DNA from: Mayamaea pseudoterrestris | Taxonomy: Eukaryota > Bacillariophyta > Bacillariophyceae > Sellaphorales > Sellaphoraceae | NCBI GenBank assembly: GCA_027923505.1 | Contig: BROI01000032.1 | Location: forward strand, 124,001-188,000 | DNA length: 64,000 bases | Reading direction: 5' to 3' | Shown: positions 14,512-45,050 of the stretch, piece by piece | How positions within the stretch are numbered: position 1 is the stretch's first letter | Layout: each line of letters begins with the position of its first letter | The notes under the pieces: generated by a model | The model's input: the letters and a program-made list of their open reading frames with translations, nothing else | What the model was told of the DNA's origin: nothing | Database searches by the model: none | Made by a program: the position numbers and the translations under genes

Positions 14512-14739
14512 ATGTATGCAATTTTACATTACGTGACCCAAAAGAACTATTTATTACAAAAACTGACCTGACGATTTATGGCGCGCTGCCCCACCCCTTG
14601 CCTGTCACTGCTGTAGAGTGTTATAGTATAATAATGACAATGCTGCTGCTCCTACTCCAGATGCGACTAGTAGGAATGTGCAGTACTACCAAATAGAGCA
14701 CATCAACACCAATTTGTGTTGCAGGGAATGGCTTCATGG
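14512..14739. other. Left flank of the satellite block
   Basis: Unique sequence after the stop codon. The last about 60 bp may hold a badly decayed monomer, since phrases similar to the repeat (GCAGGGAATGGC) appear, but I cannot align it with confidence. Confidence 0.4.
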
Positions 14740-17700
14740 ATGTGTACTGCACACACTTTCCTTGCAGTACCCTGACATCCACACGCCCCTACAGCAAGCC
14801 ATGTATACCCCCAAATAACACCAGAATGGTGCCAACATCATTGCTCAGGCTGCGCTACAAGAAGGTATACCTGGCTGGTGTCTTCGGGGACTGCAGTGTG
14901 ATTGATGACAACTTGCCACCAGTCTCAGCCGGCAGATGACTTGACATTCAAACGCCCCTACAGCAGGCCATGTTTACACTCAAATTCCACCAGAATGGTG
15001 CCAACATCATTATGCAGGCTGCGCTACAAGATGGTAGGTTTGGCTGGTGTCTCAGGGGATGGCAATGTATTTGATGACAACTTGTCACCAATCTCAGCCG
15101 GCAGTTGCCGTGACATCCAAACGCCCCCACAGAAAGTCATGTAGGTGCCCACAGTACACCAGAATGGTGCCAACATCATAATTAAGGCTGCGCTACAAGA
15201 TGGTAGGCTTGGCTGGTGTCTCCGGGGATGGCAATGTATTTGGTGACAACTTGTCACCAGTCTCAGCCCGCAGATGCCATGACATTCAAACGCCCCTACA
15301 GCAAGCCCTGTAGGTGCCCAAATTACACCAAAATGGTGCCAACATCATTATTCTGGCTGCGCTACAAGATGTTAGGCTTGGCTGGTGTCTCCAGGGATGG
15401 CAATGTATTTGGTGACAACTTGTCACCAGTCTCAACCCACAGATGCCGTGTCATTCAAATGCCACTACGGCAAGCCATGTAGGTGCCCAAATTACAACAG
15501 AATGGTGACAACGTCATTATTCCGGCTGCGCTACATGATGGTAGGGTTGGATGGTATCGCGGGGGATGGTGATGTATTTGGTGACAACTTGTCACCAGTC
15601 TCAACCCACAGATGCCATGACATTCAATTGCCCCTACAGCAAGCTCTGTAAGTGCCCAAATTACACCAGATTGGTGCCAACATCAGTATTCAGGCTGAGC
15701 TACAAGATGGTAGGCTTGGCTGCTGTCTCAGGGGCGTCTTAGTGGATGGCAATGTATTTGGTGACAACTTGTCAACAATCTCTGCCTGCAGATGCCATGA
15801 CATTCAAACGCCCCTACAGCAAGCCCTGTAGGTGCCCAAATTACACCAGAATGGTGCCAACATCATTATTCAGGCTGCGCTACAAGATGGTAGGCTTGGC
15901 TGGTGTCTCCGGGGATGGCAATGTATTTGGTGACAACTTGTCATCAGTCTCAGCCCACAGATGCCGTGACATTCAAACGCCCCTACAGCAAGCCCTGTAG
16001 GTGCCCAAATTACACCAGAATGGTGCCAACATCAATATTCAGGCTGCGCTACAAGATGGTAGGCTTGGCTGGTGTCTCAGGGGATGGCAATGTATTTGGG
16101 GACAACTTGTCACCAGTCTCAGCACCCAGATGCCATGACATTCAAACGCCCCTACAGCAAGCCCTGTAGGTGCCCAAATTACAACAGAATGGTGCCAACA
16201 TCGTTACACCGGCTGCGCTACAAGATGGTGGGCTTGGCTGGTGTCTCTGGGGATGGCAATGTATTTGGTGACAACTTGTCACCAGTCTCAGCCCACAGAT
16301 GCCATGACATTCAAACGCCCCTACAGCAAGCCCTGTAGATGTCCAAATTACACCAGAATAGTGCCAACATCATTATTCCGGCTGCACTACAAGATGGTAG
16401 GTTTGGCTGGTGTCTCAGGGGATGGCAATGTATTTGGTGACAACTTGTCACCAGTCTCAGCCCACAGATGTTGTGACATTCAAACGCCCCTACAGCAAAC
16501 CATGTAGGTGCCCAAATTACACCAGAATGGTGGCAACATTATTATTCAGGCTGCGCTACAAGAAAGTAGGCTTGGCTGGTGTCTCAGGGGATGGCAATGT
16601 ATTTGGTGACAACTTGTCACCAGTCTCAGCCCGCAGATGCCATGACATTCAAACGCCCCTACAGCAAGCCCTGTAAGTGCCCAAATTACACCAGAATGGT
16701 GCCAACATCATTATACCGGCTGCGCTACAAGATGGTGGGCTTGGCTGGTGTCTCCGTGGATGGCAATGTATTTGGTGACAACTTGTCTCCAGTCTCAGCC
16801 CACAGATGCCGTGACATTCAAATGCCCCTACAGCAAGCCCTGTAGATGCCCAAATTACACCAGAATGGTGCCAACATCATTATTCTGGCTGCGCTACAAG
16901 ATGGTAGGCTTGGCTGGTGTCTCAGGGGATGGCAATGTATTTGGTGACAACTTGTCACCAGTCTCAGCCAACAGATGCCGTGACATTCAAACGCCCCTAC
17001 AGCAAGCCCTGTAGGTGCCCAAATTACACCAGAATGGTGCCAACATCATTATTCAGGCTGCGCTACAAGATGGTATGCTTGGCTGGTGTCTCAGGGGATG
17101 GCAATGTATTTGGTGACAACTTGTCACCAGTCTCAGCCCGCAGATGCCATGACATTCAAACGCCCCTACAGCAAGCCCTGTAGGTGCGCAAATAACACCA
17201 GAATGGTGCCAACATCATTATTCTGGCTGCGCTACAAGATGGTAGGCTTGTCGGGTGTCTCCAGGGATGGCAATGTATTTGGTGACAACTTGTCACCAGT
17301 CTCAGCCCGCAGATGCCGTGACATTCAATCGCCCCTACAGCAAGCCCTGTAGGTGCCCAAATAACACCAGAATGGTGCCAACATCATTATTCCGGCTGCG
17401 CTACAAGATGGTAGGCTTGTCTGGTGTCTCAGGGGATGGCAATGTATTTGGTGACAACTTGTCACCAGTCTCAGCCCACAGATGCCATGACATTCAAACG
17501 CCCCTACAGCAAGCCCTGTAGGTGCCCAAATAACACCTGAATGGTGCCAACATCATTATGCAGACTGCGCTACAAGATGGTAGGCTTGGATGGTGTCTCC
17601 GGGGATGGCAATGTATTTGGTGACAACTTGTCACCAGTCTCAGCACAGAGATGATGTGACATTCAATCGCCCCTACAGCAAGCCCTGTATGTGCCCAAAT

Positions 17701-20080
17701 TACACCAGAATGGTGCCAACATCATTATTCAAGCTGCGCTACAAGATGGTAGGCTTGGCTGGTGTCTCAGGGGATGGCAATGTATTTGGTGACAACTTGT
17801 CACCAGTCTCAGCACGCAGATGCCATGACATTCAATTGCCCCTACAGCAAGCCCTGTAGGTGCCCAAATTACACCAGAATGGTGCCAACATCATTATTGA
17901 GGCTGCACTACAAGATGGTAGGCTTGGTTGGTGTCTCCGGGGATGGCAATGTATTTGGTGACAACTTGTCACCAGTCTCAGCCTGCAGATGCCGTGACAT
18001 CCAATCGCCCCTACAGCAAGCCCTGTATGTGCCCAAATTACACCAGAATGGTGCCAACATCATTATTCAAGCTGCGCTACAAGATGGTAGGCTTGGCTGG
18101 TGTCTCCAGGGATGGCAATGTATTTGGTGACAACTTGTCACCAGTCTCAGCACGCAGATGCCATGACATTCAATCGCCCCTACAGCAAGCCCTGTAGGTG
18201 CCCAAATAACACCAGAATGGTGCCAACATCATTATTCCGGCTGCGCTACAAGATGGTAGGCTTGTCTGGTGTCTCAGGGGATGGCAATGTATTTGGTGAC
18301 AACTTGTCACCAGTCTCAGCCCACAGATGCCATACATTCAAACGCCCCGACAGCAAGCCCTGTAGGTGCGCAAATTACACCAGAATGGTGCCAACATTAT
18401 TCAGGCTGCGCTACAAGATGGTGGGCTTGGCTGGTGTCTAAGGGGATGGCAATGTATCTGGTGACAACTTGTCACCAGTCTCAGCCCACAGATGCCGCGA
18501 AATTCAAACGCCCCTACAGCAAGCCCTGTAAGTGCCCAAATTAAACCAAAAAGGTGCCAACATCATTATTCAGGCTGCGCTACAAGATGGTAGGCTTGGC
18601 TGGTGTCTCGGGGCATGGCAATGTATTTGGTGACAACTTGTCACCAATCTCTGCCTGCCGATGCCATCACATTCAAACGCCCCTACAGCAAGCCCTGTAG
18701 GTGCCCAAATTACACCAGAATGGTGCCAACATAATTAATCAGACTGCGCTACAAGATGGTGGGCTTGGCTGGTGTCTAAGGGGATGGCAATGTATTTGGT
18801 GACAACTTGTCACCAATCTCTGCCTGCAGATGCCATGACATTCAAACGCCCCTACAGCAAGCCCTGTAGGTGCCCAAATTACAACAGAATGGTGCCAACA
18901 TCATTAATCAAATGCGCTACAAGATGGTAGGCTTGGCTGGTGTCTCCGGGGATGGCAATGTATTTGGTGACAACTAGTCACCAATCTCTGCCTGCAGATG
19001 CCATGACATTCAATCACCCCTACAGCAAGCCCTGTAAGTGCCCAAATTACACCAAAAAGGTGCCAACATCATTATTCAGGCTGCGCTACAAGATGGTAGG
19101 CTTGGCTGGTGTCTCAGGGCATGGCAATGTATTTGGTGACAACTTGTCACCAGTCTCAGCCAGCAGATGCCATGACATTCAAACGCCCCCACAGAAAGCC
19201 CTGTCGGTGCCCAAATTACAACAGAATGGTGCCAACATCATTAATCAGGCTGCGCTACAAGATGGTAGGCTTGGCTGGTGTCTCAGGGGATGGCAATGTA
19301 TTTGGTGACAACTTGTCACCAATCTCTGACTGCAGATGCCATGACATTCAATCACCCCTACAGCAAGCCCTGTAGGTGCCCAAATTACACCAGAATGGTG
19401 CCAACATCATTATATAGGCTGCGCTACAAGATGGTAGACTTGGCTGTTGTCTCAGGGGATGGCAATGTATTTGGTGACAACTTGTCACCAGTCTCAGCCC
19501 ACAGATGCCGGGACATTTAAATGCCCCTACAGGAAGCCCTGTATGTGCCCAAATTACAACAAAATGGTGCCAACATCATTATTCAGGCTGCGCTACAAGA
19601 TGGTAGGCTTGGCTGGTGTCTCAGGGGATGGCAATGTATTTGGTTACAACTTGTCATTAATCTCTGCCCGCAGATGCCATGACATTCAAATGCCCCTACA
19701 GCAAGCCCTTTAGGTGCCCAAATTACAACAAAATGGTGCCAACATCATTATTCAGGCTGCGCTACAAGATGGTAGGCTTGGCTGGTGTCTCCAGGGATGG
19801 CAATGTATTTGGTGACAACTTGTCACCAATCTCTGCCTGCAGATGCCATGACATTCAATCACCCCTACAGCAAGCCCTGTAGGTGCCCAAATTACACCAG
19901 AATGGTGCCAACATCATTATTCAGGCTGCGCTACAAGATGGTGGGCTTGGCTGGTGTCTCAGGGGATGGCAATGTATTTGGTGACAACTTGTCACCAATC
20001 TCTGCCTGCAGATGCCATGACATTCAAACGCCCCTACAGCAAGCCCTGTAGGTGCCCAAATAACACCAGAATGGTGCCAA

Positions 20081-20105
20081 ACACACAACATCCATTCCAT
20101 GCAAT
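20081..20105. other. 25-bp insertion inside a satellite monomer
   Basis: Between TGGTGCCAA and CATCATTAT, which are adjacent in other copies, this copy has 25 extra bases rich in A and C. There is no clear target-site duplication. Confidence 0.75.
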
Positions 20106-21240
20106 CATCATTATATAGGCTGCGCTACAAGATGGTAGGCTTGGCTGGTGTCTCAGGGGATGGCAATGTATTTGGTGACAACTTGTCATCAGTCCTCAGC
20201 CTGCAGATGCCATGACATTCAAACGCCCCCACAGAAAGCCCTGTAGGTGCCCATATTACACCAGAATGGTGCCAACATCATTATTCAGGCTGCGCTACAA
20301 GATGGTAGGCTTGGCTGGTGTCTCAGGGGATGGCAATGTTTTTGGTGACAACTTGTCACCAGTCTCAGCCCGCAGATGCCGTGACATTCAAACGCCCCTA
20401 CAGCAAGCCCTGTAGGTGCCCAAATTACACCAGAATGGTGCCAACATCATTATTCAGGCTGTGCTACAAGATGGTAGGCTTGGCTGGTGTCTCAGGGGAT
20501 GGCAATGTATTTGGTGACAACTTGTCACCAGTCTCTGCCTGCAGATGCCATGACATTCAAACGCCCCTACAGCAAGCCCTGTAGGTGCCCAAATTACACC
20601 AGAATGGTGCCAACATCATTCTCCAGGCTGCGCTACTAGATGGTAGTCTTGGCTGGTGTCTCCGGGGATGGCAATGTATTTGGTAACAACTTGTCACCAA
20701 TCTCCGTTGCCGTGGCCCACAGCAAGCCCTGTGGTCACCAGAATGGTGCCAACATCATTATTCAGGCTGCGCTACAAGATAGTAGGTTTGGCTGGTGTCT
20801 CAGGGCATGGCAATGTGATTGGTGACAACTTGTCACCAATCTCTGCCTGCAAATGCCATGACATTCAATCACCCCTACAGCAAGCCCTGTAGGTGCCCAA
20901 ATTACACCAGAATGGTGCCAACATCATTATTCAGGCTGCGCTACAAGATGGTAGGCTTGGCTGGTGTCTCAGGGGATGGCAATGTATTTGGTGACAACTT
21001 GTCACCAGTCTCAGCCCGCAGATGCCATGACATTCAAACGCCCCTACAGCAAGCCCTCTAGGTGCCCAAATTACACCAGAATGGTGCCAACATCATTATC
21101 TCGGCTGCGCTACAAGATGGTAGTCTTGGCTGGTGTCTCCGGGGATGGCAATGCATTTGGTAACAACTTGTCACCAATCTCAGCCTGCAGATGCCATGAC
21201 ATTCAAACGCCCCTACAGCAAGCCCTGTAGGAGCTCAAAT

Positions 21241-21635
21241 TACACCAGAATGGTGCCAACATCATTATTCTGGCTGCGCTACAAGATGTAAGGCTTGGCT
21301 GGTTTCTCCAGGGATGGCAATGTATTTGGTGACAACTTGTCACCAGTCTCAGCACGCAGATGCTGTGACATTTAAACGCCCCTACAGCAAGCCCTGTAGG
21401 TGCCCACAGTACACCAGAATAACATCATTATTCCGGCTGCGCTACAAGATAGTAGGTTTGGCTGGTGTCTCAGGGCATGGCAATGTGATTGGTGACAACT
21501 TGTCAACAGTCTCAGTCCATAGATGCCGTGACATCTAGACGCCCCTACAGCAAGCCCTGTAGGTGCCCAAATTACACCAGAATGGTGCCACATCATTATT
21601 CAGGCTGCGCTACAAGATGGTAGGCCTGGCGGGTG
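21241..21635. repeat. Higher-order duplicated block, first copy
   Basis: This run of just over two variant monomers includes a copy lacking about 7 bp (ACCAGAATAACATCATT) and others with TGTGATTGG and GACATCTAGACG. It recurs almost base for base at about 22586-22980, at a constant offset of 1345 bp, close to eight monomers. Confidence 0.85.
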
Positions 21636-22585
21636 TCTCAGGGGATGGCAATGTATTTGGTGACAACTTGTCACCAGTCTCAGCCAGCAGATGCCATGAC
21701 ATTCAAACGCCCCCACAGAAAGCCCTGTAGGTGCCCATATTACACCAGAATGGTGCCAACATCATTATTCAGGCTGTGCTACAAGATGGTAGGCTTGGCT
21801 GGTGTCTCAAGGGATGGCAATGTATTTGGTGACAACTTGTCACCAGTCTCAGCCCACAGATGCCGTGACATTCAAACGCCCCTACAGCAAGCCCTGTAGG
21901 TGCCCAAATTACACCAGAATGGTGCCAACATCATTATTCCGGCTGCGCTACAAGATGGTAGGCTTGGCGGGTGTCTCCAGGGATGGCAATGTATTTGGTG
22001 ACAACTTGTCACCAATCTCTGCCTGCAAATGCCATGACATCTATACGCCCCTACAGCAAGCCCTGTAGGTGCCCAAATTACACCAAAATGGTGCCAACAT
22101 CATTATTCAGGCTGCGCTACAAGATGGTAGGCTTGGCTGTTGTCTCAGGGGATGGCAATGTTTTTGGTGACAACTTGTCATCATTCTCAGCCAGCAGATG
22201 CCATGACATTCAAACGCCCCTACAGCATGCCCTCTAGGTGCCCAAATTACACCAGAATGGTGCCAACATCATTATCTCGGCTGCGCTACAAGATGGTAGT
22301 CTTGGCTGGTGTCTCCGGGGATGGCAATGCATTTGGTAACAACTTGTCACCAATCTCAGCCTGCAGATGCCATGACATTCAAACGCCCCTACAGCAAGCC
22401 CTGTAGGTGCTCAAATTACACCAGAATGGTGCCAACATCATTCTCCAGGCTGCGCTACTAGATGGTAGTCTTGGCTGGTGTCTCCGGGGATGGCAATGCA
22501 TTTGGTAACAACTTGTCACCAATCTCAGCCGGCAGTTGCCGTGACATCCAAACGCCCCCACAGCAAGCCCTGTAGGTGCCCACAG

Positions 22586-22980
22586 TACACCAGAATGGTG
22601 CCAACATCATTATTCTGGCTGCGCTACAAGATGTAAGGCTTGGCTGGTGTCTCCAGGGATGGCAATGTATTTGGTGACAACTTGTCACCAGTCTCAGCAC
22701 GCAGATGCTGTGACATTTAAACGCCCCTACAGCAAGCCCTGTAGGTGCCCACAGTACACCAGAATAACATCATTATTCCGGCTGCGCTACGAGATAGTAG
22801 GTTTGGCTGGTGTCTCAGGGCATGGCAATGTGATTGGTGACAACTTGTCACCAGTCTCAGTCCATAGATGCCGTGACATCTAGACGCCCCTACAGCAAGC
22901 CCTGTAGGTGCCCAAATTACACCAGAATGGTGCCACATCATTATTCAGGCTGCGCTACAAGATGGTAGGCTTGGCGGGTG
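22586..22980. repeat. Higher-order duplicated block, second copy
   Basis: Second copy of the variant block at 21241-21635, shifted by 1345 bp, with few single-base differences. It shows recent duplication of a roughly eight-monomer segment inside the array. Confidence 0.85.
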
Positions 22981-25660
22981 TCTCCGGGGATGGCAATGTA
23001 TTTGGTGACAACTTATCATCAGTCTCAGCCCACAGATGCCATGACATTCAAACGCCCCAACAGCAAGCCCTGTAGGTGCCCAAATTACACCAGAAGGTGC
23101 CAACATCATTATTCCGGCTGCGCTACAAGATGGTAGGCTTGTCTGTTGTCTCAGGGGATGGCAATGTTTTTGGTGACAACTTGTCACCAGTCTCAGCCCG
23201 CAGATGCCATGACATTCAAACGCCCCTACAGCAAGCCCTGTAGGTGCACAAATTACACCAGAATGGTGCCAACATCATTATCTCGGCTGCGCTACAAGAT
23301 GGTAGTCTTGGCTGGTGTCTCCGGGGATGGCAATGCATTTGGTGACAACTTGTCACCAATCTCAGCCGTCAGTTGCCGTGACATCCAAACGCCCCCACAG
23401 CAAGCCCTGTAGGTGCCCACAGTACACCAGAATGGTGCCAACATCATTATTCACAGTCAGGCTGCGCTCCAAGATGGTAGGCTTGGCTGGTGTCTCCAGG
23501 GATGGCAATGTATTTGGTGACAACTTGTCACCAGTCTCAGCACGCAGATGCTGTGACATTTTAACACCCCTACAGCAATCCCTGTAGGTGCCCACAGTAC
23601 ACCAGAATGGTGCCAACATCATTATTCCGGCTGCGCTACAAGATGATAGGCTTGGCTGGTGTCTCAGGGGATGGCAATGTTTTTGGTGACAACTTGTCAC
23701 CAGTCTCAGCCCGCAGATGCCATGACATTCAAACGCCCCAACAGCAAGCCCTGTAGGTACCCAAATTACACCAGAATGGTGCCAACATCATTATCTCGGC
23801 CGCGCTACAAGATGGTGGGCTTGGCTGGTGTCACAGGGCATGACAATGTATTTGGTGACAACTTGTCACCAGTCTCAGCCCACAGATGCCGGGACATTTA
23901 AATGCCCCTACAGGAAGCCCTGTAGGTACCCAAATTACACCAAAATGGTGCCAACATCATTATTCCGGCTGCGCTACAAGATGGTAGGCTTGGCTGGTGT
24001 CTCAGGGGATGGCAATGTATTTGGTGACAACTTGTCACCAGTCTCAGCCCACAGATGCTGTGACATTCAAACACCCCTACAGCAAGCCCTGTAGGTGCCC
24101 AAATTACAACCGAATGGTACCAACATTGTTATTCCTGCTGCGCTACAAGATGGTTGGCTTGGCTGGTGTCTCCGGGGATGGCAATGTATTTGGTGACAAC
24201 TTGTCACCAGTCTCAGCACGCAGATGCCGTGACAATCAAACACCCCTACAGCATGCCCTGTAGGTGCCCAATTAACACCAGAATGGTGTTAACATCATTA
24301 TTCAAGCTGTGTTACAAGATAGTATGCATGGCTGGTGTGTCCGGGGATGGCAATGTGATTGGTGACATCTTGTCACCAATCTCAGCCCATGTATGCCGTG
24401 ACATTCACTTGCCCCTACAGCAAGCCCTGTAGGTGCCCAAATTACACCAGAATGGTGCCAACATCATTATTCAGGCTGCGCTACAAGATGGTAGGCTTGG
24501 CGGGTGTCTCAGGGGATGGCAATGTATTTGGTGACAACTTGTCATCAGTCTCAGCCCGCAGATGCCATGACATTCAAACGCCCCAACAGCCAGCCCTGTA
24601 GGTGCACAAATTACACCAGAATGGTGCCAACATCATTATTCCGGCTGCGCTACAAGATGGTAGGCTTGGATGGTGTCTCAGGGGCTGGCAATGTATTTGG
24701 TGACAACTTGTCACCAGACTCAGCCCGCAGATGCCGTGACATTCAAACGCCCCTACAGCAAGCCCTGTAGGTGCCCAAATTACACCAGAATGGTGTTAAC
24801 ATCATTATTCAGGCTGCGCTACAAGATGGTAGGCTTGGATGGTGTCTCAGGGGCTGGCAATGTATTTGGTGACAACTTGTCACCAATCTCAGCCCACAGA
24901 TGCCATGACATTCAAACGCCCCTACAGCAAGCTCTGTAGGTGCCCAAATTACACCAGAATGGTGCCAACATCATTATACCGGCTGCGCTACAAGATGGTG
25001 GGCTTGGCGGATGTCTCCGGGGATGGCAATGTATTTGGTGACAACTTGTCACCAGTCTCAGCCCACAAATGCCGTGACATTCAAACGCCCCTACAGCAAG
25101 CCCTGTAGATGCCCAAATTACACCAGAATGGTTCCAACATCATTATTCCGGCTGCGCTACAAGATGGTAGGTTTGGCTGGTGTCTACGGGGATGGCAATG
25201 TGATTGGTGACAACTTGTCACCAGTCTCAGCCAGCTAATGCCGTGACATTCAAACGCCCCTACAGCAAGCTCTGTAGGTGCTTAAATCACACCAGAATGG
25301 TGCCAACATCATAATTCAGGCTGCGCTACAAGTTGGTAGGCTTGGCGGGTGTCTCAAGGGATGGCTATGTATGTGGTGACAACTTGTCACCAGTCTCAGC
25401 CCACAGATGCCATGACATTCAAACGCCCCTACAGCAAGCCCTGTAGGTGCCCAAATTACACCAGAATGGTGCCAACATCATTTTTTAGGCTGCGCTACAA
25501 GATGGTAGGCTTGGCGGATGTCTCAGGGGATGGCAATGTATTTGGTGACAACTTGTCACCAGACTCATCCCAAAGATGCTGTGACATTCAAACGCCCCCA
25601 CAGCAAGCCCTGTAGGTGCCCAATTAACACCAGAATGATGCAAACATCATTAATCCGGGT

Positions 25661-26440
25661 GTAGCTAACCTTGGGGACACATATGCAGTAAGATTGGTGC
25701 ATAACATTCACTCTTAGCTCACGTGTAGCATCAGTTTTTTTGGGAGGGCAAAGAATCACACAATAACCAGCTACACGGTGCTACAGTGTGTGGCCTTCAA
25801 TGAATACCCCAAATAGTATTGTTCCATGAATTCTGTTCTGGCTATGCTTGGGGACATGTATTCAGTGAGATTGGTGCATAGCAATCATTTTCAGCTCACA
25901 TGTAGCATCAGTTGTTTGGTAGGGCAAAGATCCACACAGTAACCAGCTCCATGGTGCCACATGTGTGGCCTTCAACAACTACCCTTTATAGTCTTGTTCC
26001 ATGAATTTTGTTCTGGCTATGCTTGGGGACACATATGCAGTGAAATTTTGGTGCATAACATTCACTCTTAGCTCATGTGTAGCATCAGTTGTGTGGGAGG
26101 GCAAAGATCCACACAGTAACCAGCTACATGGTGCTACAGTGTGTGGCCTACAATGACTACCTCCAATAGTATTGTTCCATGAATTCTGTTCTGGTTATGC
26201 TTGGGGACATGTATTTGGTGAGATTGGTGCATAGCAATCATTTTCAGCTCACATGTAGCATCAGTTGTTTGGAAGGGCAAAGATCCACACAGTAACCAGC
26301 TACACGGTGCTACAGTGTGTGACCTTCAATGACTACCCCCAATAGTCTTGTTCCGTTAATTTTGTTCTGGCTATGCTTGGGGACAAGTATATGGTGAGAT
26401 TGGTGCATAGCAATCATTTTCAGCTCACATGTAGCATCAG
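25661..26440. repeat. Second satellite family, 176-177-bp monomers in A-B-A-B-B' order
   Basis: The phrase TTGGGGACA recurs at 25671, 25848, 26023, 26201 and 26377, spacing 175-178 bp. Copies 1 and 3 share CATATGCAGT and CATAACATTCACTCTTAGC (type A). Copies 2, 4 and 5 share GCATAGCAATCATTTTCAGC (type B), so the higher-order unit is a dimer of about 352 bp. Copy 5 is cut short where 169-bp-type sequence resumes. The phrase GGGGACATGTATTTGGTGA resembles the 169-bp monomer's GGGGATGGCAATGTATTTGGTGA, which suggests common origin, but the 19-bp dyad is absent. Confidence 0.92.
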
Positions 26441-26885
26441 TTGTTTGTTGGTGAGACCTTCTCACCAGTCTCAGCCAGCAGATGCCTTGACATTAAAGTG
26501 CCCATACATCAAGCCAAGTAGGTGCCCAAATCACAGCAGAAGGGTGCCAACATCATTATTCAGGCTGCACTACAATATGGTATGCCTGGTTAATGGCTCG
26601 GTAGACTGCTATGTGATTGGTGACAATATGTCACCAGTCTCAGCCTGCAAATGCCTTGACCTACAAATGTCCTTACAACACCATACAACAAGATATGTAT
26701 TCACCTAGCTCACACCAGAATGGTGCCAATACATAATTCAGTCTGTGCAGCAAGATGGTATGACTGGTTAATGTCTCGGTAGACTGCAATGTGATTGGTG
26801 ACAAGTTATAACCCGTCTCAGCCCGCTGATGCCATAAAATTTGAATGCCAATACATCGAACCATGTATACACCCAAATTACATAT
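26441..26885. repeat. Decayed copies of the 169-bp monomer (right edge)
   Basis: About two and a half diverged monomers. Dyad positions are 26449-26467 (TGGTGAGACCTTCTCACCA) and 26618-26636 (TGGTGACAATATGTCACCA), both still with 8-bp matching arms. A third near 26794 is degraded. The CCTACAG/CTGTAGG stem is lost here. Confidence 0.9.
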
Positions 26886-26936
26886 GAATGCATCTCTCAA
26901 TGTGTTTGAGCAGTAGTACACATTGAGAGTGCATTC
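26886..26936. repeat. Strong hairpin at the right satellite boundary
   Basis: The left arm 26886-26905 (GAATGCATCTCTCAATGTGT) pairs with the right arm 26918-26936. There is a single bulged T and a 12-nt loop. It stands between the last decayed monomer and unique sequence. It could be a small foldback element, a transcript end or a small-RNA precursor; nothing in the sequence decides. Confidence 0.85.
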
Positions 26937-27246
26937 TTACACAGCTTTCCTGTTGCTAAAGGTACCACATACTTTTCAGCTCATAGTCGGAACTGGTTGA
27001 ATCGTGTGCTTGCATGCATCGCAATCAAGCGCCTCTGGCGAGCTCTGATTGGTGGAAATTAAACTTGAAGTGACCTCGAAAATGTCAACGTTGCAAAAAT
27101 GACCTCGTGGCGCAAGCAGACGTTGCCCAAGGCGGAGCCAAATTCTCCGAGCACCGCACGCAACGCACACAAAACCAATCGAACCACATCTCAGGCAAGC
27201 AGCAAGCGATTTCTCTATCAATTTCATTCCTCGACTTGTGCTATCC
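26937..27246. other. Unique sequence between satellite block and next gene
   Basis: 310 bp that should contain the promoter of the gene starting at 27247. The opposite-strand open frame reaching in from that gene shows no domain and is a shadow. No repeat is seen. Confidence 0.4.
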
Positions 27247-41783: not shown

Positions 41784-42020
41784 AGTGGTATTATATTCCT
41801 CTTCGTAGTTGAGTGAATTGAATAAATGTAGTAGAGAGAGTAGAAGCTTTGTTTCTGCTTTGCAAAGTCCATCGTGATGGTTTCGTGGTCGCGGCTGTGA
41901 TTATCGCAGCGGTACACATTTCTGTCCGACCACGACTCATTTTCTGATCCATCCGTCTTGCAACATCTCGTTCACTTTTTCGATGGCCGATCATCAGCAT
42001 CACCACGCGACAACAACAAC
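41784..42020. promoter_or_regulatory. Divergent promoter, TAF1B-like / SET-JmjC genes
   Basis: 237 bp between divergent ATGs. The plus-strand frame is open back to a TTG at 41958 but has no ATG there, so 42021 is used. Confidence 0.4.
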
Positions 42021-45000
42021 ATGACTGTACCTACGCACAATAGCAGCAGAAGCAATTCACTAGTCGAACGATGTGACAGTGAAACACGGGGCCGTCACTT
42101 GAGAGCCATCAAACGCATTGACCGAGGCCGCCTCCTCTGGTGCGAGCGACCCTTGCTGTGCCTGCAGAGTCGAGACAATTTACGCCACGCCTTTGTCTGC
42201 TCGTACTGTCATGCCTTTATGGGTGGACCTAATGTCGCAATGAGTAAGAGATTTGCTGACGTAAAAGCTGAAACGAATACTGCTGTGACGGATGATGCAA
42301 ATGGAAATGACAATCATCAATACGATGCGGACTCTTCTCGATCATTTCACTACATTCCTTGTCGACACAAGTGCGGACATTACTACTGTTCCGATGATTG
42401 CGAAGAGAAGGCTTGGATGTTGCATCATTTCGTCTTTTGCACGGGGCGGTTTGACACGCTGGAGCATCCAATTGTTGTGTTCAAGCAGTGGGCCGTTGCA
42501 AGCAACGAAATTCTCTTGTTGGCAGCCGAATGGTGGGTTGCCCAGCATGTGACAAGCATGGCTGCTGCGGCTGCTGCATCCGGCGAAGAGTCGTACTACG
42601 GTGTCGATGGAGCTGGTGCGGACGATGCCAACAGCGACGAGAATTCTCCTTGGCGACGAAGACCAACCGACTACAGTGACTTCTCAATGGTGCCATGGTG
42701 GGATGTAGAGACTGCGCCGCTTCGAGCGCAGCCAGGAGGCTTTATCGAAGCAGCAGCCTTGGAGACGACACTGCGAGAGCTTTGTGAGACTGCTGCGAAA
42801 CTTTTGAATGAGGTTTTTGACGCATACAATCGTGACAACCAAAGTCAAAAGGATGCATTTCAATGTGTCATCCCTCCCATTTCGGCCTTGGACATTGCCA
42901 AGCGAGTTGGTTCCTTCTCGCAGAACGCCATGGGAATTAGGCAGAGGCATCCATTGTGTCGGGACGTGTTTGAGCGAAGTTTCAGGGAGCAGTGGCATGA
43001 CGAGATTGTGGCGGCGCTGGCGGAAGCTGACTTTATCGGGGATGGCAGTGGTGAGAATGGATGTTGCAATGATGATGACGAGACTGAAGAAAAGGACAAA
43101 GCAAGCGGCAATTCACGCGATGAGGCGGAAACAATGAACGACGGGATCTTACCATCAGCGAAGTCGAATGACGCCAGCCACATTGCACCGGACGAATGGG
43201 ATTACTCGGTCGATGAGATTGCAGCCTTCCTGTCGCGTCTCTTTGTCGATGAGGACGGAACTGTCCGCGACGTTGATCAGCAAAGTAATGATGAAGAAGA
43301 CGGGCAAGAGCGAGATGCGACTGGTGACGATCTAGATTATATCTTTTCTCCTTTGGATGGAACGGCCATGTATTCACTCATTTGCAAAATGAACCATTCT
43401 TGCGATCCAAACGTCATTGTCTTGTACAAGCGTACGGCGTACGGTTCCAGTCATCCGCTGACGGCGTTCGCCGTAGCGTTAAAGCCCATCGAAGCAAATG
43501 AAGAGCTGACTATATCGTACATTGACAAAAGTGAACCACTCGCTACACGTCAAGAGTCTTTAGCCAATTACGGCTTTAGTTGTCGTTGCACAAAATGCGA
43601 AGCTGAGACACTTGGAGAGATGCTTGACAAGGAGCAGGTTGCTGATCCCACTGATGATTTGTTCGGTGAACGAGATAGTGACGAGGATAATTCAGATTAT
43701 GATAAAGTTGGTGACGACGTTGATGATACGACATCAGAGGCCAAACTTGAACAAATTGCTGCACAACTCGACACCCGAGCTAACCACTGCAAACTGGGAT
43801 CAATGCCTCTGCATAAGTTTGCACGGGCGTTTTCGTATGCGATCTCATGCGCTAGAAAACTTTCAAAGTCTGTCGATGATGCAACAATCTGCCATCTTTT
43901 GGATAGTCTTGTCATGGGGCTCGAAATGAAGGACTTTTGCCTATGTGAAATTGTCGGCAATGACTTAGAGCAGCAATTGTACGCAACGTTGCGAAGAAAT
44001 AAGTCATGGCCTAGCTCAATGCACAGAGAAGCATATTGGTGTGCCGTACTTGGGAGTGCGATTGGATCTGCGCATAATTGCCAATTCCTAGAAGCTTTGT
44101 CCTTTCTCGACAAAGGCATCATTCTCGGGCTACCATGCGACAGCACCCAGCTACGTGAGCTTTATCGCTACGTTGAGTTGCATGCATGTCAAATGGCTCA
44201 AGGCCCTTGCCTCCTGTTTCGCAACAATATCGTAAGCAACTTTAGCATGCCGCTACACAAGGAGCTTTTGCTGGAGAAGGGGCTGTCAAAGCCGCTACAT
44301 AATCCGATAGCGGAGCGAAATGAAAGCATGTCTTTTGAAGCTTTTCATAATGAATTTGCAATGAATCAAAAAGCTGTGGTCATGCGAGACTTTGCCGGCA
44401 GCTGGAGGGCCACAGAGAAATGGCGCAACCTGGGATGGTTGGCTCACGTTCATGGTGGACGACTCGTCCCAGTGGAGCTCGGGTCGATGCTCGCCGGGAC
44501 CATGAAGGAAGAAATGCTTACCTTTCGACAATTCATTAAGAAATATATGATCGACGAAAAATCGAAGAGAATCTGGAGCTTGGATGATGCAGTGGACCCG
44601 TTGTCCCACGTTGCTTACGTTGCTCAGCATCCGCTTCTGAACCAGATTACGTCGCTCAAAGATGACTTGGATATGTCTCCGAGTATTATCGGTCCTTCCG
44701 GACCGACGCATGTGTATTTATGGATTGGAACTGGTGGAACTCGAACTCCTCTGCATTTCGACAGCTACGACAACCTGTTCGTCCAGTTAGTGGGCGCCAA
44801 GTACGTTCGCCTGTATAGTGCGAACGAGACGTCAAAACTCTACGTGAACAAACAATGTGCATATGGATTACAGGGCAACATGAGCGACGTTGACTGTGAA
44901 CGTGAAGATTTTGACAAGCATCCTTTGGCAAGAGAGGCAGCGTTCGAGGAAGTGTTGCTTCTCCCTGGTGACGCCTTGTTCATCCCAGCTCGGACTTGGC

Positions 45001-45050
45001 ACTACGTGCGGTCGTTGACCACATCCATCAGCGTAAATTACTGGTTCTAA
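42021..45050 (+). CDS. SET-MYND (SMYD-like) methyltransferase fused to a JmjC/cupin-8 oxygenase
   Basis: 1009 residues in one exon from the ATG at 42021. The N-terminus has the SMYD layout: an early SET strand (GRHLRAIKRIDRGRLLWCERP), a MYND-like zinc region (CSYC, then CRHKCGHYYCSDDC...HHFVFC), and the main SET part near 450-520. That part holds NHSCDPN (from residue 458), ANEELTISYID and a post-SET Cys cluster (YGFSCRCTKC). A TPR-like helical stretch follows. Residues about 780-1009 are a JMJD5-like JmjC/cupin-8 domain: TPLHFDSYDNLFVQLVGAKY with iron ligands H912 and D914, and PARTWHYVRSLTTSISVNYW with H994. Each half looks catalytically complete. The two activities (lysine methylation; 2-oxoglutarate hydroxylation or demethylation) in one chain are unusual. 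Targets are unknown. Confidence 0.88.
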   Translation: MTVPTHNSSRSNSLVERCDSETRGRHLRAIKRIDRGRLLWCERPLLCLQSRDNLRHAFVCSYCHAFMGGPNVAMSKRFADVKAETNTAVTDDANGNDNHQYDADSSRSFHYIPCRHKCGHYYCSDDCEEKAWMLHHFVFCTGRFDTLEHPIVVFKQWAVASNEILLLAAEWWVAQHVTSMAAAAAASGEESYYGVDGAGADDANSDENSPWRRRPTDYSDFSMVPWWDVETAPLRAQPGGFIEAAALETTLRELCETAAKLLNEVFDAYNRDNQSQKDAFQCVIPPISALDIAKRVGSFSQNAMGIRQRHPLCRDVFERSFREQWHDEIVAALAEADFIGDGSGENGCCNDDDETEEKDKASGNSRDEAETMNDGILPSAKSNDASHIAPDEWDYSVDEIAAFLSRLFVDEDGTVRDVDQQSNDEEDGQERDATGDDLDYIFSPLDGTAMYSLICKMNHSCDPNVIVLYKRTAYGSSHPLTAFAVALKPIEANEELTISYIDKSEPLATRQESLANYGFSCRCTKCEAETLGEMLDKEQVADPTDDLFGERDSDEDNSDYDKVGDDVDDTTSEAKLEQIAAQLDTRANHCKLGSMPLHKFARAFSYAISCARKLSKSVDDATICHLLDSLVMGLEMKDFCLCEIVGNDLEQQLYATLRRNKSWPSSMHREAYWCAVLGSAIGSAHNCQFLEALSFLDKGIILGLPCDSTQLRELYRYVELHACQMAQGPCLLFRNNIVSNFSMPLHKELLLEKGLSKPLHNPIAERNESMSFEAFHNEFAMNQKAVVMRDFAGSWRATEKWRNLGWLAHVHGGRLVPVELGSMLAGTMKEEMLTFRQFIKKYMIDEKSKRIWSLDDAVDPLSHVAYVAQHPLLNQITSLKDDLDMSPSIIGPSGPTHVYLWIGTGGTRTPLHFDSYDNLFVQLVGAKYVRLYSANETSKLYVNKQCAYGLQGNMSDVDCEREDFDKHPLAREAAFEEVLLLPGDALFIPARTWHYVRSLTTSISVNYWF

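Follow-up and report, generated by a model that had tools for sequence, protein, structure and literature searches.

A near-constant 19-bp palindrome in dispersed satellite arrays of the diatom Mayamaea pseudoterrestris is a candidate protein-binding box

The palindrome TGGTGACAACTTGTCACCA occurs once per monomer in a 169-bp satellite of the diatom Mayamaea pseudoterrestris. These 19 bases are nearly constant against a drifting remainder of the repeat, a contrast suggestive of a protein that reads the palindrome. We analyzed this dyad in a stretch of 64,000 nucleotides, referred to as the window (C32:124001-188000, where C32 is contig BROI01000032.1), and in further arrays of the same assembly, which has 30,627,229 bases in 41 contigs. 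Judging from sequence comparisons, we consider it moderately probable that the dyad is a sequence-specific protein-binding box in dispersed satellites; the bound protein and its role are what we infer from the pattern of constraint.

The array in the window was delimited using Tandem Repeats Finder (TRF). It consists of 64 head-to-tail monomers of 169 bp at 14773-25652 on the forward strand, each with one dyad. A scan of positions 14701-25700 returned 64 dyad sites, of which 46 are exact, 15 have one mismatch, two have two and one has three. The original prediction had put the intact copies at about 46 of 64, and TRF and the dyad scan confirm this number as an exact count. The first exact dyad lies at 15241-15259 and the last one of the main array at 25543-25561, neither assigned to a strand. 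Because the odd palindrome has a central C, the same site reads TGGTGACAAGTTGTCACCA on the opposite strand. The spacing from dyad to dyad in the main array is exactly 169 bp in 51 of 63 cases and 139 to 194 bp in the other 12. When up to three mismatches were allowed on both strands, the window gave 131 matches to the dyad vs a mean of 0.04 in 100 dinucleotide-preserving shuffles.

Within the window the dyad varies at 0.018 compared to 0.059 for the remainder of the monomer, the lowest value (rank 1) of 169 rotations. For a wider sample, monomers were gathered by a profile hidden Markov model (HMM) and not by the dyad, from about 0.3 Mb of genome sequence. This yielded 581 hits from 23 sources, 498 of them spanning at least 150 of the 169 columns. 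The loci themselves were located through the dyad or its T-centre variant, and 12 copies identical to the T-centre anchor were removed, leaving 486 monomers. In these the dyad differs from the consensus by a mean of 0.012 per site (median 0.010) and is exact in 403 copies, while the 140 outside columns have a mean of 0.095 (median 0.040), or 0.041 for the 116 columns below 0.15. In 100,000 random draws of 19 outside columns the dyad mean was never reached, also with the columns above 0.15 excluded. For low variation, the dyad ranks 1 of 169 among the 19-bp stretches of the wider sample as well. Measured against each source's own consensus it is slower than the rest in all 21 sources with at least five monomers (two sources of two monomers each are uncounted), and its consensus is identical in all 21. 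Monomers diverged by more than 15 percent still show 0.064 in the dyad vs 0.218 elsewhere (rank 2 of 169). Thus, the claim that the dyad changes more slowly than the rest of the monomer holds both in the window and beyond it. With CpG columns left out, the monomer outside the dyad still varies at 0.085, and CpG is not the cause of the contrast.

The conserved stretch is sharply bounded, as columns -3 to -1 just 5′ of the dyad vary at 0.36, 0.40 and 0.40, and diversity does not rise smoothly with distance from the dyad. Edges this sharp argue against a conversion tract as the explanation. The 12-bp GACAACTTGTCA, which lies inside the least variable stretch, is the longest series of columns in which no allele exceeds seven copies; other slow columns include AATG (-7 to -4) and TCTC (21 to 24). 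Single-copy alleles amount to 0.84 per column in the dyad vs 0.34 outside, and alleles in at least 11 copies make up 0 of 44 in the dyad vs 97 of 393 outside (Fisher test of singletons vs common alleles, P = 1e-7). Changes in the dyad, be they mutations or assembly errors, arise readily but do not spread. We read this frequency spectrum as selection against the spread of monomers with a broken box. A dyad mutating as fast as its flanks, the outcome named in the original prediction as speaking against it, did not appear among the variants that have spread.

A search for the same 19-mer elsewhere in the genome, also proposed with the original prediction, found 7,561 exact copies genome-wide (3,872 + 3,689 on the two strands), and none were found with the reversed sequence as control. 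From this number and the exact dyad in 403 of 486 sampled monomers we estimate about 9,100 monomers, corresponding to 1.5 Mb or 5 percent of the genome. The T-centre version of the dyad has 53 occurrences on 23 contigs. Altogether the 169-bp satellite is found at 54 or more places, 50 kb or more apart, on at least 28 of the 41 contigs, with at most six places on one contig; this count pools the exact and T-centre searches, with variants assigned by their letters among the matches listed, and the arrays read on C1 and C32. Those on C1 measure about 25.5, 5.9 and 12.7 kb, and a further one at 638-640 kb reaches a run of N; the length of complete or almost complete arrays is about 6 to 26 kb. Some C1 arrays are flanked by oppositely oriented monomers. 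The satellite is dispersed and not restricted to a single region per chromosome. Given its many places on at least 28 contigs, the 19-mer is therefore no marker of a single centromere per chromosome.

A second satellite with a unit of 347 bp is present at 679-683 kb of C1 and also on C18, C19, C22 and C26. Each of its halves, beta and gamma, has one palindrome, and the two 27-mers are GCACATTCAACAA-C-TTGTTGAATGTGC and GCAGATCCAACAA-G-TTATTGGATCTGC. Both have ACAA-S-TT in common with the 169-bp dyad. Beta has the core in full (ACAACTTGT), while the gamma core has an A where its consensus breaks one pair (TTAT instead of TTGT). The hexamer GTCTCA follows 3 bases past the 27-mer end in both halves and directly 3′ of the dyad (0 bases) in the 169-bp monomer, where the copy behind the first exact dyad lies at 15260-15265 on the forward strand and forms the asymmetric part of the common module. 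The two halves align with each other (z score 7.2) but hardly with the 169-bp monomer (2.2 and 0.6). Core and GTCTCA are thus common to satellites that otherwise cannot be aligned; the arms differ. The pattern CAACTTGTT-N(4-16)-GTCTCA gave 134 matches vs 1 in the reversed control, and CAAGTTGT-N(3-16)-GTCTCA gave 481 vs 2.

Constraint on the two halves was computed without cutting the monomers at the palindrome, as such cutting favours conservation. In beta (43 monomers) the palindrome is the slowest of 132 windows of the monomer, at 0.021 vs 0.091. In gamma (45 monomers) it ranks 3 of 138, at 0.061 vs 0.107, which is a modest constraint. At 208-1834 of stretch L048 (C22, about 651.8-653.4 kb) a short 169-bp array was seen with both flanks resembling the 347-bp satellite.

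A palindrome could also be kept as a structure, in DNA as a cruciform or hairpin or in RNA as a hairpin; this has been proposed for dyad-rich centromeres. Each of the four single strands folded gives a clean hairpin, with energies of -7.5 to -12.8 kcal/mol and z of -3.0 to -7.0, palindromy is retained between the satellites although the arms differ, and two arm pairs that differ between beta and gamma are complementary in both. Arm changes are nevertheless mostly one-sided. In the 169-bp family 91 one-sided changes were counted vs 4 double ones, 1 of them compensated (0.55 double changes expected); beta has 12 one-sided and 3 double changes, 2 compensated (0.39 expected), and gamma has 64 one-sided and 1 double change, which is compensated (1.38 expected). 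Eighteen gamma copies picked for an odd 3′ arm have 38 one-sided and 2 double changes, none compensated, and their 5′ arm is unchanged in 13. Prevailing compensated changes, the mark of selection on a hairpin, are not found in the 169-bp, beta or gamma families. Furthermore, one entire array on C26 is homogenized for a one-sided change, arm sequence within the 169-bp family is nearly invariant beyond what a structure requires, and no structured-RNA match was found in the window by Rfam at gathering scores. Compensatory covariation, suggested at first by the differing arms of the 347-bp satellite, was then mostly contradicted by the one-sided counts. The predominance of one-sided changes fits sequence recognition better than hairpin selection, and we regard a structural role as unlikely.

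The fixed sequence of the box in every sampled array and its recurrence in a second satellite leave a protein reader as the best explanation, though one held with only moderate confidence. The palindromy suggests a dimer, and GTCTCA lends the site a direction. The binder would most likely be a dimeric, or two-domain, host nuclear protein, and one protein might serve both the 169-bp and the 347-bp satellites by contacting the core and GTCTCA. Monomers with an intact box would then be favoured during copying, homogenization or retention of the arrays, possibly through ordered nucleosomes, silencing or easier replication brought about by the bound protein.

Several observations weigh against such a reader. 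Since the dyad or a close variant served to find the sampled loci, arrays lacking a dyad would escape; array homogenization can also yield low diversity, and the singletons may partly be assembly errors. Double arm changes slightly exceed independence in two families, the 169-bp family and beta, although this rests on seven cells. The gamma core is variable (0.074), with the exact consensus palindrome in only nine of 45 copies, and as the arms are unlike between the satellites a single protein would read mainly the core. When further families were sought through the core with A or G behind it, there were 19 matches vs 8 in the control, and most were variants of the 169-bp dyad. Other satellites of 176 to 180 bp at these locations are without the module. 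Tandem repeats of 172 to 181 bp that adjoin the arrays have no such dyad either, and the module is therefore no mere by-product of unit length.

As to the identity of a reader, the original prediction had pointed to CENP-B on primate alpha satellite and to homeodomain proteins of the TALE class. The 17-bp CENP-B box YTTCGTTGGAARCGGGA has a best match of 10/17 in the 169-bp consensus, which is equalled by 269 of 300 shuffles and thus at chance level; beta reaches 10/17, gamma 12/17 (18 of 300 shuffles) and the dyad itself 9/17. The dyad was accordingly rejected as a CENP-B box by sequence. The CENP-B-type, Tc5/pogo DNA-binding domain PF03221 has no match in the genome, but as it has none in any of the 14 control genomes either, this does not demonstrate that the domain is absent. 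In the comparison with alpha satellite, what stands is the constrained box, one per monomer; the CENP-B box itself and the confinement to a single region do not, and with arrays on at least 28 contigs the parallel in location breaks down, except in the case of poly- or holocentric chromosomes. Five genome matches to Homeobox_KN (TALE) exceed the cut-off. Two of equal score on C9, at 824838 and 853987, are 29 kb apart and perhaps represent a duplicated TALE gene. The TGACA/TGTCA half-sites, which the original prediction likened to TALE-homeodomain sites, are present in the 169-bp dyad and absent from the beta and gamma palindromes. TALE binding, conceivable for the 169-bp dyad, therefore cannot explain the common module.

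The failure of dyad variants to spread would also be expected if the dyad were a signal for recombination or amplification, at which arrays break, switch or copy so that monomers without it are not multiplied. In Meloidogyne, transitions from one satellite to another fall exactly at the common Box 1 (PMC3694981), and at position 26445 of the window a 176-bp repeat switches to the 169-bp satellite just 5′ of a dyad. Array edges in general are without fixed phase, however: 7 of 40 lie at the dyad or one base before it vs about 4.7 expected, three of the 40 edges being at a gap or near the end of the sequence stretch read. In addition, the lack of a smooth rise of diversity away from the dyad is contrary to conversion tracts starting there. 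A signal of this kind is improbable in our judgment. The scattered phases of the 40 edges also led us to reject rolling-circle or Helitron-like transposon ends with a 3′ hairpin, and nothing pertinent was found in the literature on Replitrons. A neutral origin, with the dyad a young or chance trait of the founding monomer and its low diversity an accident of homogenization, would agree with the frequent occurrence of inverted repeats in satellites and with the many other monomer columns that are also below 0.03. It is disfavoured by the agreement of all 21 sources, by the draws of random columns and by the frequency spectrum, and also by the presence of the same module in a second satellite, which together make it very unlikely.

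We give slightly less credence still to the arrays being units of poly- or holocentric centromeres in which a centromere protein would use the dyad as its box, on the model of repeat-based holocentromeres. Each chromosome would then have many small satellite units, and one reader of the palindrome would recruit the centromere or silencing machinery to two unrelated satellites via ACAA-S-TTGT and GTCTCA. This would amount to an independent origin of a CENP-B-like system in a photosynthetic stramenopile. The abundance and spread of the arrays are in line with this, and so is their length of about 6 to 26 kb, given that Tyba arrays of Rhynchospora breviuscula average about 18 kb at a spacing of about 370 kb (PMC10954556). 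Meloidogyne holocentromeres are described as divergent tandem repeats with a common 19-bp box (Despot-Slade 2021, as cited in PMC9673304). Against this, the centromeres of the diatom Phaeodactylum are short, AT-rich and non-repetitive (PMC7082073), compared to a GC content of about 50 percent in the 169-bp arrays, and 13 contigs have no place among the matches listed.

The array in the window occupies the gap from the end of an ADP-ribosylglycohydrolase gene (14511) to the start of an unnamed open frame (27238). Its left edge is degenerate (14714-14772, forward strand), with the HMM cluster beginning at 14714 and the TRF array at 14773. The main array is followed by the 176-bp tandem repeat (25670-26447, forward strand, 4.4 copies), which is unrelated to the satellite and whose consensus unit has no dyad with arms of at least 7 bp and a spacer of up to 8 bp. 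Behind it, beyond the end given in the original prediction, an HMM cluster marks outlying diverged 169-bp monomers at 26445-26888 on the forward strand. These contain the variant dyad TGGTGAGACCTTCTCACCA at 26449-26467, in which one pair is changed on both arms and still complementary while the pair beside the centre is broken, the variant TGGTGACAATATGTCACCA at 26618-26636 and, in the last outlying monomer, a degenerate dyad at 26796-26814; none of the three is assigned to a strand. Immediately past the last degenerate monomer there is an inverted repeat, CTCTCAATGTGT ... ACACATTGAGAG (26892-26938). Two weaker inverted repeats were noted within the 169-bp monomer, CCTACAG-CAAGCC-CTGTAGG at 57-75 from the dyad start, which is variable among subfamilies, and CACCA-GAA-TGGTG at 86-98. 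TRF also gives a period of 338 bp. No dimeric higher-order repeat is evident in the window, where neighbours at even and odd distances are alike (0.902 to 0.912), or in the 610-kb array of C1, where they are alike too. In the 947-kb array of C1, neighbours at even distances are slightly more alike at some lags.

The 176-bp repeat adjoins the 169-bp satellite not only in the window but also on C15 (L046, 9-705). A third satellite of about 172 to 181 bp without a strong dyad lies beside 169-bp arrays on C1 (604960-606895 and 607843-608853), in L031 (943-1459) and in L032 (1-525). At about 670797 of C1 and about 381 of L044, array edges have an identical 40-base flank followed by an older monomer type, which carries the longer palindrome GATTGGTGACAACTTGTCACCAATC and adjoins monomers of opposite orientation. 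The 19-mer was also found in two stretches of a viral collection and 26 of a prokaryotic collection, one copy each and with no sign of arrays; several of the latter are from Rhodoferax or Polaromonas and three are in one Bacteroidales bin. As for the host, the genome has 53 matches to the chlorophyll-binding family, all 53 over the cut-off, and an exon near the window on C32 matches fucoxanthin chlorophyll a/c proteins best (E 2e-44), in keeping with a diatom. Several proteins of the window start with signal-like stretches containing an AFAP motif, a single frame at 41958-45050 fuses a SET domain with a Cupin_8/JmjC-type domain, and a tRNA search of the window found none.

If the box holds in this diatom-like alga, the solution known from mammals and root-knot nematodes would have arisen in a very distant lineage as well, which would provide a handle on the question of whether satellites spread through a short motif read by host proteins. 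With a genome of only 30 Mb, pull-down and chromatin immunoprecipitation are practical. Even if no protein binds, the frequency spectrum raises the question of why monomers with a broken dyad fail to multiply.

Tyba, the repeat of Rhynchospora holocentromeres, is 172 bp long. Similar to the satellite described here, repeats of about 170 bp form dispersed arrays of tens of kb at most; unlike here, association with CENH3 has been shown for Tyba, and the available part of the source mentions no conserved palindrome (PMC10954556). Among stramenopiles, PpSat1 and PpSat2 of the oomycete Phytophthora parasitica are likewise satellites in arrays, but their lengths differ (143 bp for PpSat2) and the paper describing them mentions no dyad, hairpin or palindrome (PMC7290008). 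The literature on diatom satellites yielded none like the 169-bp one, which does not prove its absence from print. Short dyads and non-B DNA of centromeres resemble the present case in that dyads of satellite monomers can form hairpins (PMC8997354 and PMC13081366); here arm sequence is constrained, not symmetry alone, and compensation is mostly lacking.

The CENP-B box of primate alpha satellite is likewise a single box in a monomer of about 170 bp. It is a different sequence of 17 bp, present mainly in every second monomer and confined to a single region of each chromosome, whereas the dyad is present in every monomer type sampled and its arrays are dispersed. The CENP-B box is bound by its protein in unrelated satellites of different mammals (PMC8997354). 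In Meloidogyne, a short conserved box (Box 1, which is CENP-B box-like, and a centromeric 19-bp box) lies in otherwise divergent satellites, forms a domain of low variability in the monomer and is found in arrays on all chromosomes (PMC3694981, PMC9673304). The Meloidogyne box resembles the CENP-B box, which the diatom dyad does not, and the box reported here is a perfect palindrome in an alga, with arrays on at least 28 of 41 contigs. By analogy, the dyad may work like the satellite boxes of Meloidogyne or the CENP-B box, such boxes being known from mammals and root-knot nematodes.

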